Assembly: GCF_000423065.1 (NCBI RefSeq)
Contig: NZ_AUHG01000011.1
Span: forward strand, 372,001-436,000
DNA: 64,000 nucleotides
Direction of reading: 5' to 3'
Origin: Christiangramia echinicola DSM 19838
Lineage (GTDB): Bacteria; Bacteroidota; Bacteroidia; Flavobacteriales; Flavobacteriaceae
The position numbers and the translations under genes are program-made. This document shows positions 31,707 to 60,270 of this stretch, piece by piece. Position 1 is the stretch's first letter, and each line of letters begins with the position of its first letter. The notes under the pieces are model-generated. The model worked only from the letters and a program-made list of their open reading frames with translations. It was not told where the DNA came from and made no database searches.

Positions 31707-31724
31707 ATTCGCAGCCGAAATTTA
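31707..31724. repeat. Left attachment site (attL core)
   Basis: 18-bp exact copy of the right-end repeat. Together with the bases before it, it forms TAAATTCG (31704-31711), a -7-like promoter box, so the original chromosomal promoter of the gene at 60277 may be stranded at this end. Confidence 0.85.
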
Positions 31725-32368: not shown

Positions 32369-32641
32369 ATGAAACAAATTTCTAAAATGACCTTGGAGAT
32401 TAAAGATGAAAGGAAATTTTCTAATCTCTTGGTTACACATAAGGAGCAATTACTTCTTTTAGTATCTCTTTGTGCAAAGACGGGGATAGTTGATAAACAT
32501 CAATTGGTTCAAGAGTATTTATCGCAAACTCTACCCATACTTTCCCGCCAAGATAAAAGCTACTATGGCCGTATAAATCATAGAGTCCAAAGAAAAAAAC
32601 ATCTAATAGGACTTTACGAGCAATATTTGGTAGTGAAATAA
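32369..32641 (+). CDS. Small protein of unknown function, first gene of the element
   Basis: A 90-residue basic cytosolic protein (MKQISKMTLEIKDERKFSNL...; C-terminal SYYGRINHRVQRKKHLIGLYEQYLVVK). I do not recognise a family. Features: helical, positively charged C-terminus, no Cys cluster or membrane segment. It follows a palindromic operator-like sequence and precedes the replication-like gene, the position where elements often place a regulator, excisionase or replication initiator partner; that role is only inferred from position. Confidence 0.6.
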   Translation: MKQISKMTLEIKDERKFSNLLVTHKEQLLLLVSLCAKTGIVDKHQLVQEYLSQTLPILSRQDKSYYGRINHRVQRKKHLIGLYEQYLVVK

Positions 32642-32759: not shown

Positions 32760-35537
32760 GTGATTACTAATGATGAAACTAAACGAATTGAATTTGCTGA
32801 AAAACATGCAAGTCAAAACCAGGAAATAAGAGAGCTTTTATATTCCTTTGACAATAACAAAGAACTAATCAAAAAAGGCACAGGCTTAGGGTTTACTCAT
32901 GCTATGTGTAACTATGACCGAGGAAATCTAGTAATTCTTTCTCCGAATAACAGTATGATTTGGGATAAAGGGAAGGGTAAATATAATTGTGGGAAGTTTT
33001 TTTCGATAGGCGGGAGTGGACTACAGTATAAATTGGATGAACTTTTTGAATATCTAACTACAACTCCTAGACCCCTTCAAAATGCCGTTGTCAATTTAAA
33101 TGCTGAATGGTTGATACAAGCCAAAGAAAATCAGGAATTATGGGAACTTCTAAGGAAGTTCAATGTTTTTATTGACGAATCTCATCAATACGTAGGGGAT
33201 AGTAGCTATAGAAGTCCTCAAGGAGAGGCTTTAGAGCTAATATATAACGAATTCACGGGCCAAATAGTTAGAAGTACGGCAACACCAATCCCTTACGGAT
33301 TTGATATTCCTAAGGACCTTAAATTTCAGCTAGTAGAAATTAGCCGTTCTGATATCGCTTTAAAAAGATTGGGTTATAGCGAGAACCTACATGATTACCA
33401 AACATTTATAAATTCTGAATTAGAGAAGGGGCGGTCAGTTTGTGTTTTTTCCAACAATAAAGATATACATACTTATATCCCACCTAACCTACAAGAGGAT
33501 GAGATTGTAAATTTGGTGGGGGACAACCTTGCTATTAAATTATTACCCTACGATAGGGGTAATAAAGATGTTAAAAAACCGAGACTGCGAAATCTGAGTA
33601 GTGCTTTTTTTACAGGTTATGACATTGATGATAAATGCAGCGTTGTTGTTATCTCAGAGCAAAAAAGCCCCCACACTAAAATAAATATCAATGATTGTGT
33701 CCAGGCTTATGGAAGATGTCGACAGGGGGTATATGAGGCACTTTATATCAACGTGCCCGCTGATTATGATATTGAAGGAAAAAAAATTAATTGTTTCACA
33801 TCGGAAGATGAGGTGCTAAATGAAATCGATAGGTATTTTTATAAAATTGAGCACGTAAAGGATGAAATTAATAGGTTTGGAGTTTACGATGTAAAATACG
33901 CCACCACAGAAGGTTATGTAAATAGAGGAGAGATTGGAAGTAGTACCCTCCAAGCGGTGCATGATTATTATCAGTTTAATGAGGATAAGAGAATTGAGCT
34001 ATTCAAATCCTATAACTTCGAACTGTATGATTATGAGGGGAAGGAAAGAAATGACGAAAAGATTCCTAGACCAAAGATTGCCCAGCAACTCAAGAATCTT
34101 TACCAATCGAAAAATTATCTTTATTGGAAATATCTTACCATAAAGCAAAACCTTAGATATAAAAAGAAACCAGGTTTCACTCCTGCTCTGGGGCTTATGT
34201 ATTTAAGTATTCATTTGATTAAGGAATTTAAGATTGAACCTTGTATAGAAATCTTGAATAAATCAAAAATGGAGCCTCTTCGCCTATACAGTACATTGGA
34301 TAAGTGGCTCAGACTGAATTTCCCGATGGATTATCTCATTGAGCAACTTACCCCTAAACAAGTGGAGCAACTCAAGCCATATAGGGTAGTTCTGCCCCAC
34401 AACTTGGATGACCAAATTGTAATAGATTGGCATATGTTTTTCGCAATGTATAGAGTTAGTGTAGGTAATTATGACCCTGAAATAAAACGTTATCTTAAAA
34501 TAGCTGAAATGGCAGGGAATAAGAAGATTATCAAAAAATTTCACCACAACAAATCACATCGTATGACCTTAGCTCCAAGGGAGGTGGAAAAGGCTGTGAA
34601 AAATAAATACAAAAACGTTACCCAACAGGATAAAGACCTTATTAATAAGGTCCTTAAAAGGAGTTTCAAACGTATAGATGGCAAACAAGTGGAGCGGGAA
34701 GATATTGAAATCAAGGAGGAGCAAGTAGCCCAGGAAGGAAAATATACCAACATGGAGAAGGTTTCCATCCAACACAATAAGGTAATCAATTTACTTATTC
34801 AGCTACTGCATATGGGGGATGGCAAATATGCGAATGTACGTAAAGGTAACAGGGAATATGGAGCGATAACCGAAGTAGCGAAAAAATTAAGATGTCTGGT
34901 TCCATTAAAATTTATTGAATTCGATATGATTAGTGCAAATCCCCAGGCAATTGATTATTTATATGATACCACAATTGCTTTTCAGGTATATAAGAATATC
35001 ATGAAGAATATGAGAGTAAGCAGAGAAGAAGCAAAAACCCTTTTCTCTACCTATTTAAATAATCACCGCTTTAGTAAGAAAAAAGCCCGTACCTTTTACA
35101 AGGATATTTGCAAATACCCTGATAGTAAAGCCTTAATGCTAGCAAAAGTAACTGCAGATGTGAAAAGGGGTACTTTTTTTGAAAAAATGACAGAAGTTGA
35201 GGATAATCTAATGAGCATGTTGGCCCAGCATTTAGAAATAAATTCTCTGAGATTTCATGATGCCTTAATTCTGCCTGCATGGGAATGTAAAGGTCAGGCC
35301 TTACCCGCATTATTTAATGGGTTTAGATTTGATATATCGTATTTTAATTGTAAAGATAACTTTCATTGTAAAACAGTAGAACTGGAAGGAGAAGAGCAGA
35401 TGGAAATTGAGTTGAAATCACCAAAACCCATTGAAAGTGAACCTACTTTTAATGAATTAGTAATGAAGTTGGAAAGCAGGGATAAAAATCAATCATCTCT
35501 TGAGAGGATATTGAGTAATTACCAAAAAACTGGTTAG
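32760..35537 (+). CDS. Putative replication protein: degenerate SF2 helicase domain with a family A polymerase-like C-terminus
   Basis: A 925-residue protein starting at GTG (stop codon 15 bases upstream in frame, no other early start). N-terminal third looks like a superfamily 2 helicase: Walker A-like GTGLGFTH (40-47, lacking the GKT lysine), Walker B-like DESH (139-142), STATP (172-176), and QAYGRCRQG (315-323, motif VI). The C-terminal third has IEFDMISANPQAID with Asp722, then SREEAKTLFSTYLNN (755-769), then RFHDALILP with Asp834, in the order and style of motifs A, B and C of a family A DNA polymerase palm. I infer element replication; no exact family is recognised. A T-flanked hairpin follows. 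Confidence 0.55.
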   Translation: MITNDETKRIEFAEKHASQNQEIRELLYSFDNNKELIKKGTGLGFTHAMCNYDRGNLVILSPNNSMIWDKGKGKYNCGKFFSIGGSGLQYKLDELFEYLTTTPRPLQNAVVNLNAEWLIQAKENQELWELLRKFNVFIDESHQYVGDSSYRSPQGEALELIYNEFTGQIVRSTATPIPYGFDIPKDLKFQLVEISRSDIALKRLGYSENLHDYQTFINSELEKGRSVCVFSNNKDIHTYIPPNLQEDEIVNLVGDNLAIKLLPYDRGNKDVKKPRLRNLSSAFFTGYDIDDKCSVVVISEQKSPHTKININDCVQAYGRCRQGVYEALYINVPADYDIEGKKINCFTSEDEVLNEIDRYFYKIEHVKDEINRFGVYDVKYATTEGYVNRGEIGSSTLQAVHDYYQFNEDKRIELFKSYNFELYDYEGKERNDEKIPRPKIAQQLKNLYQSKNYLYWKYLTIKQNLRYKKKPGFTPALGLMYLSIHLIKEFKIEPCIEILNKSKMEPLRLYSTLDKWLRLNFPMDYLIEQLTPKQVEQLKPYRVVLPHNLDDQIVIDWHMFFAMYRVSVGNYDPEIKRYLKIAEMAGNKKIIKKFHHNKSHRMTLAPREVEKAVKNKYKNVTQQDKDLINKVLKRSFKRIDGKQVEREDIEIKEEQVAQEGKYTNMEKVSIQHNKVINLLIQLLHMGDGKYANVRKGNREYGAITEVAKKLRCLVPLKFIEFDMISANPQAIDYLYDTTIAFQVYKNIMKNMRVSREEAKTLFSTYLNNHRFSKKKARTFYKDICKYPDSKALMLAKVTADVKRGTFFEKMTEVEDNLMSMLAQHLEINSLRFHDALILPAWECKGQALPALFNGFRFDISYFNCKDNFHCKTVELEGEEQMEIELKSPKPIESEPTFNELVMKLESRDKNQSSLERILSNYQKTG

Positions 35538-36095: not shown

Positions 36096-36638
36096 ATGAA
36101 AAATGAAAAATGGAAACCAATACAAGGCTATGAAGGGTATTATCAAGTGAGTAATAGAGGAAGAGTTAGAAGCTTGGGAAGAAGAATCACATGTCGGAAC
36201 GGGAGAGTGAGGTCCGTGAAAGAAAGGATGTTGAAATTGTCCCCAAACAAAACCAACGGTTACATCAACGTTTGGTTGTGCAAAGATGGTGAAGTAAAAA
36301 GATTTACAGTCCATCGACTTGTAGCCATACATTTCATTGATAATCCCAAAAATCGGAATATCGTAAATCACATAAATGAAATTCGAACAGATAATGACGT
36401 TTTGAATCTGGAATGGGTAACCCATGCAGAGAATATGGCACATCGGGGAGCATTCCAAAGAGGGCGGCTTAAGGTAAGGAAGAAAATCTATCAATATACC
36501 CTTGATGGTATTCTGATAAATACCTACGGCTATGCTCAAGAGACTAAAGTTGATGGATTCAAACCAAATGGAGTTACCCAGGCCTGCCTAGGATATGCTA
36601 AAACCTACTATGGGTTTATTTGGAGCTATGGGCAATAG
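36096..36638 (+). CDS. HNH endonuclease with NUMOD4 and NUMOD1-like domains
   Basis: A 180-residue nuclease. NUMOD4 motif at about 5-30 (WKPIQGYEGYYQVSNRGRVR), HNH core at about 72-117 (TVHRLVAIHF; VNHINEIRTDN; LEWVTHAENMAH), and a NUMOD1-like DNA-binding tail (about 131-178). This is the layout of free-standing homing endonucleases found in phages and mobile elements. It sits alone between the replication-like gene and the restriction locus. No intron or inteint is seen around it. Confidence 0.88.
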   Translation: MKNEKWKPIQGYEGYYQVSNRGRVRSLGRRITCRNGRVRSVKERMLKLSPNKTNGYINVWLCKDGEVKRFTVHRLVAIHFIDNPKNRNIVNHINEIRTDNDVLNLEWVTHAENMAHRGAFQRGRLKVRKKIYQYTLDGILINTYGYAQETKVDGFKPNGVTQACLGYAKTYYGFIWSYGQ

Positions 36639-36798: not shown

Positions 36799-37383
36799 AT
36801 GAAAAAATTTGAAGTCAAAAGAATTGGTGATATTGCCGATATACAATTTGGACCATATATAAAACCAGATATTGACGGTGATATTAGATATCTCCTGGCA
36901 AGTCATTTTGATGAGAATATAACTCCAATTGAGGTTAATGATAGTTTTGTAAAAGGTAATGAGAAGTTGAAAAAATTTATTCTTCAATCCAATGACGTAA
37001 TCCTAGCTGGAAAGGGACATAGAACGTTTGCGTGGGCTAATGATGAATCAATGGGTCCAGTAATACCTTCTTCTTTATTTTATATTCTACGGGCTTCTAC
37101 GGATGTAATAATTGGAAAATACCTGGCTGCTGTTCTAAACTCAGAAGTTTTACAACACCAGCTTGAAATCATCGGTGCTGGTGTAACAGTTACTTCTATA
37201 CCTAAAAAAGAACTTCAAGAACTTGAGATTGCTGTACCACTGATAGAAGAGCAGAAGAAATTTTTAGAGGTATATAATCTTCTCGATAAGGATATAGAGC
37301 TTACAGATAAATTACTTAAAGCAAAACGAAACCTCAAACGTGGGGTTGTAAATGAATTACTAACCAATAAAACCAAAACCTGA
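36799..37383 (+). CDS. Half-size type I restriction specificity subunit (single TRD)
   Basis: A 194-residue protein with one target-recognition domain (FEVKRIGDIADIQFGPYIKP...; IGAGVTVTSIPKKELQELEIAVP) and one coiled-coil spacer (EEQKKFLEVYNLLDKDIELTDKLLKAKRNLKRGVVNELLTN). Full HsdS has two of each, as in the gene at 39364. Known half-subunits can dimerise to recognise symmetric sites or act as donors for HsdS recombination. It lies upstream of hsdM and is separated by a terminator-like hairpin. It could be an intact half-S or a remnant. Confidence 0.75.
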   Translation: MKKFEVKRIGDIADIQFGPYIKPDIDGDIRYLLASHFDENITPIEVNDSFVKGNEKLKKFILQSNDVILAGKGHRTFAWANDESMGPVIPSSLFYILRASTDVIIGKYLAAVLNSEVLQHQLEIIGAGVTVTSIPKKELQELEIAVPLIEEQKKFLEVYNLLDKDIELTDKLLKAKRNLKRGVVNELLTNKTKT

Positions 37384-37590: not shown

Positions 37591-37815
37591 ATGTCTAATT
37601 CAAGACACGTAATACCGAATTCCGATGGTGGCTGGGATTCAAAAAAAGGTGGTTCTGAAAGAGCTTCCAAACACTTTGACACCAAGAAAGATGCTGAAAA
37701 GTATAGTCGTGACCTATCCCGCAAGGAAGGTTCTGAGTTATTCATCCATGGTAAGGATGGTAAGATTCAGCGAAAGGATTCCCATGGAAATGATAAATTC
37801 CCACCAAGGGGCTAA
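37591..37815 (+). CDS. DUF2188 domain protein
   Basis: A 74-residue hydrophilic protein (RHVIPNSDGGWDSKKGGSERASKHFDTKKDAEKYSRDLSRKEG...ELFIHGKDGKIQRKDSHG), a clear DUF2188. The fold is a small beta-alpha module found widely in bacteria without known function, often in mobile regions. It ends 60 bases before hsdM and may be co-transcribed with it. Confidence 0.85.
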   Translation: MSNSRHVIPNSDGGWDSKKGGSERASKHFDTKKDAEKYSRDLSRKEGSELFIHGKDGKIQRKDSHGNDKFPPRG

Positions 37816-46832: not shown

Positions 46833-48176
46833 TCACAATCTCAGTTCATATTTTTCTTGACCTTGTAAGGGCTGAACTATTAATTTTCCATCATAATCAA
46901 ACTGATATTTGAATTTCTGTAATTCTTTTACCCCATAAGCATCTAAAATTAATAGATTCTGTTTAGTATCTAAGTCCCAGGTTCCTCCATTGCCATCAAT
47001 TTTATCAGTGTATGCTCGATAACCTTCTTCGTCAAAAAATTCCAAAAAAACTTTTTCATCTGAAAACCATTTTTCAATAAAGAATTCTTTATTTATATCA
47101 TTTGAAAAATACACGATGTTCCGATGAGTTGTTTCTTTTAGTATACCTTCTTCGCTATATCTTAACCTCTTAATCCAGTTATTATTACTATCATATTCAT
47201 ATTCGAAGGAATACTTATGAGAACTGTTGGGAGATTCTAAATTTTCGAACAGCTCTTTTCTTATATCTCCTTTTTCATTTCTTTCTAGTGTCTTTATCCA
47301 TCGGATTTCCCCTTGATTATCCTTATCCGTTTGTTTAGTCACTAACCCTCCTGAATTTTCCACTTCCACGATTCCTTGAACTTCTCCATTAGGATTAAAA
47401 TGCCTATATTCAGAAATGTCAGCTCCCAAATATTTATACTGAATAATTTCTATTACTCTTTTTTCTTCTACATCAAAAAATTTAGATTCAACTACCCTCT
47501 TGTTACTTATCTTATTAATAAGCTTATATAGAAGTTTATTATCACTAAATAATCTTGATTCAGTAACGTTATTATCATCATTGTAGTAAAACCTTGTAGT
47601 AGGATAGCCGATAAAATTTTTATGCAAAATCTGATAACCAAGACTGTTATATATCCGAGTATTAAGTTTTTCCCCGTTCCTGCCAAATTCATCAATTTTC
47701 CAAACTTGACCATTTAAATTATGCTGTGCTAAGTCGTTTTTTATCTCCTCGGAAAATACGTATTTATAAAAAATAATTCCTGACTGTTTTAAGGGAGCAT
47801 TTGAATCGGTATTAAATTTTGTGCCTAAAGCAGCTTGTTCCGAAGGTCCTAATAAACATTTCGCCTTAGTTGTAGAGCCTTTATATCCTGGAATTGCCTT
47901 GAGAACATTTCCAGAAGTATCAACTTCGATATACACTGCTACAAGACCAGATTCACCGCATTGGGGGGTAATCTTTTCTTTATTTAATGCTCTTCTTCCA
48001 GCTAGTCTGTAATTTCCATCCCCATCTAAACCTATTCCCCCTACGGATTTAACATTTTCACTTTTAGGCAAACTTTGTCCAATAACATTACTTGTTATAA
48101 AAAAAGCTAATAAAATAAGATTTTTCCATTTTTTATTATTCAATATGTTACTATTCGACACTACCCTGTTTCTCAT
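46833..48176 (-). CDS. Exported protein: TonB C-terminal-like domain followed by YD/MORN-like repeats
   Basis: A 447-residue protein. A single N-terminal hydrophobic segment (about 17-34) then a TonB-CTD-like domain (about 55-142: YRLAGRRALNKEKITPQCGESG, VYIEVDTSGNVLKAIPGYKG, SGIIFYKY), which in Flavobacteria is a recurrent domain of TonB-like energy transducers. It continues with about 290 residues of repeated W/Y-rich strands (RLRYSEEGILKETTH) like the YwqK/MORN or YD family. TonB domains are normally at the C-terminus, so this layout is odd. Function unknown. Confidence 0.65.
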   Translation of the reverse strand: MRNRVVSNSNILNNKKWKNLILLAFFITSNVIGQSLPKSENVKSVGGIGLDGDGNYRLAGRRALNKEKITPQCGESGLVAVYIEVDTSGNVLKAIPGYKGSTTKAKCLLGPSEQAALGTKFNTDSNAPLKQSGIIFYKYVFSEEIKNDLAQHNLNGQVWKIDEFGRNGEKLNTRIYNSLGYQILHKNFIGYPTTRFYYNDDNNVTESRLFSDNKLLYKLINKISNKRVVESKFFDVEEKRVIEIIQYKYLGADISEYRHFNPNGEVQGIVEVENSGGLVTKQTDKDNQGEIRWIKTLERNEKGDIRKELFENLESPNSSHKYSFEYEYDSNNNWIKRLRYSEEGILKETTHRNIVYFSNDINKEFFIEKWFSDEKVFLEFFDEEGYRAYTDKIDGNGGTWDLDTKQNLLILDAYGVKELQKFKYQFDYDGKLIVQPLQGQEKYELRL

Positions 48177-58609: not shown

Positions 58610-60142
58610 TTAAAATAACATATTTCCCAAAAAGTCACTTATTTGTGAATCAAAATGCCCTGAACGTCTTCTATACTTTTCCGTTGTGCCCAGGGAAGCA
58701 TGGGTAAGGTATTCTGATGTTGCATGGGTGGTGGCACCATTCTCAAATAGCATTTGTGATGCTGTATGTCTTGCTACGTGTGATGTGATATTGGTATCTA
58801 TCTTAGCAAGCTTCTGTATTTTTTTAAGGGTGGCAGCATTATTTGATGATATACTATTATACCTTTTAGTTTCTGCTTCATCCCAACGTTTATTATCAGG
58901 TCCTAATTTAGCATTGTTACCAAAATCCCATACATATACATCGGGATACTTCTTGATAGCCACTTGTATTTGATAACTAAGATATCCCATGCGTTGTTGT
59001 ATCAGGGAATCCCTTTTTTCAATGAGCCTTAGCTTTTTATTGTTATCCTTTTGAATATCCTTGATGGTTCTACCTGAATCTAAAATTTCTATAAGTACAC
59101 CATTGGGGATATCTTCAATTTTGTTATGGGTATCAGGTGTTCTATCTATTTGGATTTGATAATGTTTTATATCCTTATCCAATTGCTTTACCTTAAGTGG
59201 TATGAATTCATTGTTATTAGGCAGTTGTTTGATAAGTAGTTCCATTAGTGACATGGGGAACATCCTAAGGAGTCTTGTTTCTGATTTGCTAGTATAAACA
59301 TCCATTCCAACGCCTTTATCATTGTATATCAAATCCCCCCATTTTAGCATGACCACATCCATGAACCTGAATGCACCCCAGAATTGAAATAGCCATGCCC
59401 GTTGCGTGTGATTGTATCTATCATGGGTATCTTTGCGGGCACCCTTTATTTTCATATTATAAACATTGAGTATTTTGAATCTATGAAATTCATCTTGGGA
59501 TAGGTAGGTATTTTTGAATTTCTCTTTAAGACGTTTGATATATTTGAAGGGATGTGTTTGTGGTTCTTTGAAGGAACAATCAGGATTTTGCAGTGCATCA
59601 TTATAGACGGCTTTGATTCTGTTTATATAGGTATTGGTGGTGGATTCTTCCAATGATTTTCTTAGCCATGTTTGGTAATCCTTTACTAATGTGTGGGTGA
59701 TATCCTTGAATGTGATGGAATGCATTTCTTTGGATTCAAGGAACTCTTGAAATTTATTCAAACCTGCAACATCATTATTTTTGGTGATATTATTAAATCT
59801 TTGGTCTTTTCTTTTATATCCATATTTAAAGAAATTAAGGTGACCGCCTGTGATTTTGGATTCTTTTTTTAGGGTTAACTCATTGGGGGTGAGTCCTAAT
59901 AGTTCAGCTTCTAATTGAACCTTGAGCTTGTGTATTTGTTCATTGATTTTTTTGTAGTTGGGTTCTGTAGTTTTCACCCAATTTTTTTTGTTATCAGAGT
60001 GATTGGGATTCCAATTTTTCTTTTTAATTTTGGCCCGCTTTACTGTGGTTCTTGATAGGGGATATTTCCCACCATCATGAACATTGATGTAAATGTAAAA
60101 ATGTTCTTTGTCAGCACTTCTTGTTTTTACGGTTATTTCCAT
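58610..60142 (-). CDS. Tyrosine recombinase/integrase of the element
   Basis: A 510-residue integrase. Arm-type N-terminal domain, SAM-like core-binding domain (about 115-200), and a catalytic domain with Arg259 (AFRFMDVVMLKW), Lys286, HVARHTA (His455, Arg458), His481 and Tyr490. Between Lys286 and His455 there are about 170 residues, with a coiled-coil-rich insertion (about 310-440) longer than in usual integrases. It should recombine the 18-bp att cores. Transcribed leftward from the right end, typical for an integrating element. Confidence 0.9.
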   Translation of the reverse strand: MEITVKTRSADKEHFYIYINVHDGGKYPLSRTTVKRAKIKKKNWNPNHSDNKKNWVKTTEPNYKKINEQIHKLKVQLEAELLGLTPNELTLKKESKITGGHLNFFKYGYKRKDQRFNNITKNNDVAGLNKFQEFLESKEMHSITFKDITHTLVKDYQTWLRKSLEESTTNTYINRIKAVYNDALQNPDCSFKEPQTHPFKYIKRLKEKFKNTYLSQDEFHRFKILNVYNMKIKGARKDTHDRYNHTQRAWLFQFWGAFRFMDVVMLKWGDLIYNDKGVGMDVYTSKSETRLLRMFPMSLMELLIKQLPNNNEFIPLKVKQLDKDIKHYQIQIDRTPDTHNKIEDIPNGVLIEILDSGRTIKDIQKDNNKKLRLIEKRDSLIQQRMGYLSYQIQVAIKKYPDVYVWDFGNNAKLGPDNKRWDEAETKRYNSISSNNAATLKKIQKLAKIDTNITSHVARHTASQMLFENGATTHATSEYLTHASLGTTEKYRRRSGHFDSQISDFLGNMLF

Positions 60143-60252: not shown

Positions 60253-60270
60253 ATTCGCAGCCGAAATTTA
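60253..60270. repeat. Right attachment site (attR core)
   Basis: Exact 18-bp copy of the left repeat, ending 6 bases before the ATG of the chromosomal gene at 60277. The bases before it give AATATTCG, a poorer -7 box than TAAATTCG at the left end. Confidence 0.85.

Follow-up and report, generated by a model that had tools for sequence, protein, structure and literature searches.

In the open-licence literature Pol theta is described as an N-terminal helicase domain joined to a family A polymerase domain (PMC6393585), AEP primases of mobile elements are described as joined to helicases (PMC5862659), and viral PolA enzymes have been surveyed together with the helicases found next to them (PMC9069017, PMC6302109). 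In titles and abstracts of the same literature no description was found of a helicase-family A fusion from bacteria or mobile elements, or of a superfamily 2 (SF2) family that lacks the P-loop lysine. The gene considered here combines both features and lies in a 64,000-nucleotide stretch of DNA (the window; contig NZ_AUHG01000011.1, positions 372,001 to 436,000) from the marine flavobacterium Christiangramia echinicola DSM 19838. It occupies window positions 32760..35537 on the + strand, has a GTG start and a reading frame that is open throughout, and encodes a protein of 925 amino acids. To our knowledge, only eukaryotes have been found to carry helicase-polymerase fusions like Pol theta. A preliminary description of the sequence called the fusion unrecognised; this holds for bacterial and mobile-element versions within the literature named above, but not for the architecture itself, which has a parallel in eukaryotic Pol theta. 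We estimate a probability of roughly 60% that the gene encodes the replication protein of an integrative mobile element, in which an SF2-type motor with a non-canonical ATP-binding loop is joined to a compact family-A-like polymerase. What the data show are the motifs and their conservation, the predicted folds, the integrated island of the window and its empty sites; the replication role, which comes from context, is inferred, as are ATP hydrolysis, unwinding and DNA synthesis.

Architecture of the fusion protein

The helicase motifs listed in the preliminary description are present and in helicase order: VFIDESH, with motif II at D139-E140-S-H142 (33174..33185, +), STATP at residues 172-176, and VQAYGRCRQG at residues 314-323, which includes motif VI, Q315-AYGRC-R321 (33702..33722, +). 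They correspond to SF2 motifs II (DExH), III (SAT) and VI (QxxGRxR). When the window protein was aligned with six homologues, each 29-34% identical to it, the helicase and polymerase motifs stood out as invariant islands, and the invariant columns of the helicase part were K38, T41, G42, G44, T46, D139, E140, H142, S172, T173, A174, P176, Q315, Y317, G318, R319, C320, and R321. As the motif residues are invariant across seven proteins at this level of identity, the motif set, judged from the alignment, is not due to chance. Residues from about 13 to 435 (32796..34064, +) are predicted to fold into two tandem RecA-like domains of the SF2 type. The first Foldseek match of this part was UL9 of herpes simplex virus 1 (HSV-1), and the Pol theta helicase was also among the matches. 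With UL9 and other SF2 helicases the protein shares the two RecA-like lobes and motifs II, III, and VI, whereas it has Phe (its relatives Gly or Ala) in place of the Walker A lysine and carries a polymerase module. We therefore do not class the protein among the canonical SF2 helicases, but its predicted fold is of the SF2 type and it may work like one.

The middle of the protein is helical and leads to a polymerase-like module, residues 545-878 (34392..35393, +), in which the AlphaFold 2 model shows a helical thumb-like part, compact fingers and a palm. Modelled alone, these residues reached a mean predicted local distance difference test score (pLDDT) of 81.6 and a predicted template modelling score (pTM) of 0.76, and the model shows a thumb-fingers-palm fold with motif A on a strand and motif C in a hairpin. 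When 437 Foldseek-ranked chains were aligned with VIA-align, 50 of the 50 entries listed were family A DNA polymerases; the polymerase domain of Pol theta was the top match among those listed, and single-subunit RNA polymerases were absent among the same 50. Retron reverse transcriptases were also found among the structural matches of the module (rows 18, 35, 37, 44, and 45), a reminder that palm folds generally score in such comparisons of a predicted model. The preliminary description had proposed an SF2-helicase-like N-terminus and a family A polymerase-like palm, and had taken a predicted fold without a palm as the result that would speak against it; the predicted folds of the two segments support the proposal, the second being modelled on its own as a family-A-like polymerase.

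By predicted fold the layout resembles that of Pol theta/Mus308, with an N-terminal SF2 helicase-like part and a C-terminal family A polymerase fold (here a predicted one) in a single chain. Pol theta is longer than 2,500 amino acids, whereas the window protein has about 925, its fingers are compact, its P-loop lacks the lysine and it is found on bacterial mobile elements. Within this layout, which the predicted fold matches, the motif I lysine and a family A profile match are lacking.

Integrative element and proposed role

At its left end an integrated island of 28.5 kb (window 31707-60270) carries the fusion gene. The island begins with an 18-bp attachment (att) repeat, ATTCGCAGCCGAAATTTA (31707..31724, +), ends with the identical 18 bp (60253..60270, +), and carries a tyrosine integrase gene at its right end (58610..60142, -; Phage_int_SAM_5 7.4e-13, Phage_integrase 3e-10). 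In all 23 congeners compared the sequence up to about 31724 runs straight on at about 60253, and end repeats, integrase and empty site together identify the island as an integrative mobile element. Two of these congeners (G266 and G1014) carry a relative of the fusion gene on another contig. A 447-aa gene at 46833-48176 had been considered as a flanking core gene; a search with it gave only partial matches, and the right border is at 60253. The neighbourhoods of homologues, a check proposed in the preliminary description, also include mobile DNA. In Gaetbulibacter saemankumensis the copy is part of an element of about 10.5 kb that interrupts a gene which we take to be comM-like, beside a large serine recombinase and a resolvase (six other small open reading frames, ORFs, of this element that were tested had no Pfam match). 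A phage contig with a terminase (L037) encodes another family member. At the Arenibacter locus the C-terminal fragment of a presumably comM-like gene lies close to the fusion gene, and the other border of the element was not found by eye.

On the simplest account the element is first excised from the chromosome, and the SF2 motor would then open, or translocate on, the excised DNA, acting at an origin or at a fork. The polymerase would start or extend new strands with D722 and D834 as metal ligands, perhaps being able to prime, and the element would thereby copy itself without full reliance on host replication. Unwinding, DNA synthesis and element replication would in this way be tasks of the fusion protein.

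Two other roles can be proposed for the same gene, and the main point for either is the presence of type I restriction genes, which adjoin it in the window and, by eye, at the related loci L028 and L030. The first is that of a repair enzyme which, like Pol theta, would anneal DNA ends at breaks or gaps and extend them, and so protect the element or mend the excision or restriction site instead of replicating the element. The two-part layout and the structural matches of both halves to Pol theta also agree with such a role, which we nevertheless regard as unlikely. The second, that of a defence-island component which joins the adjacent type I system in attacking the DNA of phages or plasmids, appears still less probable. 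Judged by eye from ORF starts, a methyltransferase-like gene near the copy of L032 and restriction-like genes near the palm gene of L035 may be added in its favour to the restriction genes at L028 and L030. However, PADLOC gave nothing for the window protein beyond one weak Cas10 match (E 0.016), no restriction genes were seen by eye beside the relatives L027, L029, L031, and L037 (which were not searched with models), and a member is encoded by the terminase-bearing phage contig.

Apart from the restriction system, the cargo of the island includes an ArsR-type regulator, a MerT/HMA protein, an SRAP protein and a pyridine-nucleotide-disulphide oxidoreductase, possibly a mercuric reductase to judge from the adjacent genes. 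Just upstream of the fusion gene is a small ORF of 90 aa (32369..32641, +); small ORFs also precede the relatives at L027 (92 aa) and L029 (86 aa), with 20% and 32% identity to that of the window and 12 invariant columns of 93 among the three. Just downstream is a NUMOD4/HNH homing-endonuclease-like gene (36096-36638), a similar gene being seen by eye downstream in L028. It is followed by a half-length HsdS-like specificity gene (36799-37383) upstream of the type I system, found by eye also beside the relatives L028 and L030, and by a small DUF2188 gene (PADLOC PDC-S16; 37591-37815) that precedes hsdM and is kept, by eye, at L005 and L030.

The ATP-binding loop

The P-loop region of the window protein reads IKKGTGLGFTH (residues 37-47), and in the deviant motif I, K38-T46 KKGTGLGFT (32871..32897, +), the lysine is found eight residues before the threonine and not next to it. 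The Walker A lysine is missing at its usual place, as had been pointed out before, residue 45 being Phe, and the protein has no canonical GxGK[ST] with a catalytic lysine. The loop was compared in 20 proteins, 10 with a palm and 10 helicase-only proteins from Bacteroidia and phages. The residue preceding the threonine is Phe in the window protein and Gly or Ala in the other 19, and a lysine eight residues ahead of the threonine is present in all 20, including L052, the loop of which, read individually, is DKGRCAIGAT. Motif II DE is kept in 20/20 and motif III [ST]AT in 18, the remaining two being Arenibacter catalasegens L018, with STASP, and the fragment L053, which stops before the motif. 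Motif VI is kept in each of the 19 proteins long enough to reach it.

The preliminary description had spoken of a crippled ATPase, and this part of it is not supported, as the loop without its usual lysine but with a relocated one is a conserved signature. Motifs II, III, and VI are retained and the lysine keeps a single new position, a pattern that speaks for an ATP site that is altered but works rather than for decay, and ATP may be hydrolyzed through the relocated lysine. It could be objected that the SF2 part is a pseudo-helicase which binds DNA, does not hydrolyze ATP without the P-loop lysine and only delivers the polymerase; the canonical lysine is indeed missing in 20/20 proteins, and the predicted model is of low confidence around the loop (pLDDT <50 for segments 42-45 and 47-53). 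We consider this improbable in view of the same conserved motifs and of the constant position of the new lysine.

The helicase-only proteins with the relocated lysine (L049, L050, L051, L052, L053, L054, L055, L056, L058, and L003:5908-7701) are about 600-700 aa long, except for the fragment L053, and occur in Bacteroidia and phages. The phage proteins include those of Psychrobacter phage D'Alembert, annotated as a DEAD-like helicase, and Edwardsiella phage ET-ABTNL-9, annotated as hypothetical, which have the same loop with the lysine eight residues before the threonine and differ from the window protein in consisting of the helicase half only (about 600-640 aa), with no palm recognised.

The palm, its partners and the extent of the family

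Three motifs define the palm of the window protein. Motif A, D722-M-I-S-A-N-P-Q (34923..34946, +; EFDMISANPQ), is at the end of the predicted strand 718-723. The motif B candidate, R755-x3-K759...N767-N768 (35022..35063, +; with R755 and K759 in SREEAKTLF), is invariant and lies in one helix (211-222 of the palm model). Motif C, R831-F-H-D834-A (35250..35264, +; RFHDALILP, with H833-D834), is at a predicted beta hairpin turn. The A-B-C order given in the preliminary description is confirmed, with motif B as a candidate, and the putative catalytic residues are invariant, the invariant palm columns of the seven-sequence alignment being D722, A726, N727, R755, K759, N767, N768, and R831-F-H-D-A835. 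The distance between the two aspartates, put earlier at about 110 residues and said to be shorter than in PolA, is 112 in the window protein and 111-114 across 11 sequences measured, compared with about 177 in the Klenow fragment. It is even shorter, 104-107, in the palms of L092, L093, L094, and L098, which are fused to segments like those of superfamily 3 (SF3).

In all 24 distinct palms collected (28 rows) the motif A Asp and the HD of motif C, and thereby the catalytic Asp pair, are kept. Nearly all of them have D-x-x-[S/A/R]-A-[N/F/Y] as motif A (DYSQIELR in PolA), and the sugar-gate position, five residues after the Asp, is Asn, Phe or Tyr (Glu in PolA). Motif B R-x3-K is found in 10/10 SF2-palm proteins, followed by K-x2-[F/Y] and N767, the PolA helix being R-x3-K-x3-F-x3-YG; the Arg is absent in 6/6 palm-SF3 proteins. 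The predicted thumb, fingers and palm and the order of motif A Asp, R-x3-K helix and motif C HD are shared with PolA (PF00476) and T7 gp5, whereas profile similarity is lacking. The DNA_pol_A profile of Pfam had no match in the window protein, and hhalign of the 28 palm rows against 31 PolA sequences gave a probability of 1.9% (E 0.025, 22 columns), which weighs against simple family A membership. For this reason the palm is not filed there; it is family-A-like in predicted fold and motif order and not a demonstrated member. That the C-terminal part has a polymerase fold but is inactive, or is some other nucleotidyl transferase, would agree with the compact fingers, the altered motif B (later spacing unlike that of PolA) and the lack of a sequence link to PolA, but is very improbable when both Asp and the motif C His persist in 24/24 palms of low overall identity.

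The palm is not confined to proteins of the window type. When 199 genomes of one genus were scanned with the palm profile, 13 had a match, although that of L097 (E 3e-4) failed rescoring and was dropped. While 10 of the 24 palms are joined to the SF2 part without the usual lysine, six are fused to a segment with SF3 motifs (L033:7413-9827, L092-L095, and L098), one precedes an SF2-like segment in which the GKT is normal (L101:6316-9870; weak Pfam DEAD match, 0.0028), and seven belong to proteins, about 790-870 aa long, in which no helicase was recognised. In the six SF3-type proteins, three of which were without Pfam match (L033, L092, and L098), the palm is N-terminal to the apparent helicase and the A-to-C stretch is shortened. 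The L101 protein (1184 aa) likewise has the palm first, the reverse of the window order, and a tyrosine integrase gene is nearby. In L034, L035, L036, and L105 (about 800-870 aa) the palm is in the N-terminal half, followed by a long C-terminal part without assigned fold; that of L008, the gene of L035, has a very weak similarity (i-E 3) to the helical region between the two domains in the window family. The palm tree groups the proteins by architecture, with full support for the SF3 group and weak support (80/61) for the SF2 group with the relocated lysine. Helicase segments of at least three kinds are joined to palms of this family, which suggests that the palm is an unrecognised replicase module in flavobacterial mobile elements.

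A tblastn search with the SF3-like segment of L033 matched phage proteins in which it follows a BT4734-like/PriCT primase (L059) or is within an annotated DNA primase/TOPRIM protein (L060), and the palm therefore stands where a primase stands. AEP primase-helicase fusions are, in outline, comparable in being long single proteins of mobile elements with a nucleotide polymerase and a helicase (PMC5862659). They differ in that the window family has a family-A-like palm, and no AEP or TOPRIM match was found with Pfam in the palm proteins tested (the window protein, L004, L005, L007, L008, L018, L033, L037, L092, L098, and L101). Given this position and the Asn, Phe or Tyr at the sugar gate, it is tempting to speculate that a compact palm of family A fold does the job of a primase, starting chains de novo and driven by the motor with the relocated lysine, although we regard this as doubtful.

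The full-length family has ten members. Besides the window copy they are from Gaetbulibacter saemankumensis (L004), Christiangramia bathymodioli (L005), another congener (L026), Salinimicrobium sediminilitoris (L015), Arenibacter catalasegens (L018), an uncultured Aquimarina (L021), the IMG/VR phage contig (L037), and two genomes of one other genus of the same family (L099 and L100). The full-length fusion is rare, being found in 3/299 genomes of the family and 3/24 of the genus, the window genome counted in both. Searches with the window protein found nothing in Pfam, PHROGs or NCBIfam at E<=1, nor among PDB sequences at E<=10; weak Pfam helicase matches were obtained for two relatives (L004 and L018). 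Phage records gave one chance-level match (E 9) and plasmid records one useful weak match (E 6e-3), to the helicase-only relative of Bacteroides finegoldii (L003, NZ_OY725919.1); this record, labelled plasmid, has rsmI and thymidine kinase beside an integrase and the helicase-only gene and seems to be a fragment of a chromosome. Scans with the window protein as single query found nothing in viral or genome contigs, nor did profile scans of viral contigs with two early alignments (A1 and A2), and the later alignments A4 and A8 each found the same single phage contig there. A motif-pattern search gave ten loci, of which five were relatives (L015, L018, L019 from the genome of L004, L021, and L023 from that of L005) and five were not (L016, L017, L020, L022, and L024); only L039, the contig of L037, was a relative among ten loci of a second pattern search. 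Three of 16 phage matches were used (H9, H10, and H24) and 13 left aside (E 8), and H8 (E 0.7), which by eye sits among ATPase genes, is not a relative. Also dropped were L002 (E 0.21), L010 (read by eye as RecG), L014 (a 33-residue match containing stops) and two further weak candidate places (E about 0.008).

By its predicted folds the fusion is a bacterial, mobile-element counterpart of the Pol theta-type helicase-polymerase, and its polymerase part is so small and has diverged so far that no profile library used recognises the palm of the window protein. Should the palm prove to act as a primase, it would be a further, structurally unrelated primase or primase-polymerase solution in mobile elements. 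The relocated Walker A lysine in 20 proteins of Bacteroidota and phages makes it directly testable whether the classical P-loop lysine is dispensable for an SF2 motor; if it is, the loop with the moved lysine would be a Walker A motif that works in a new form.
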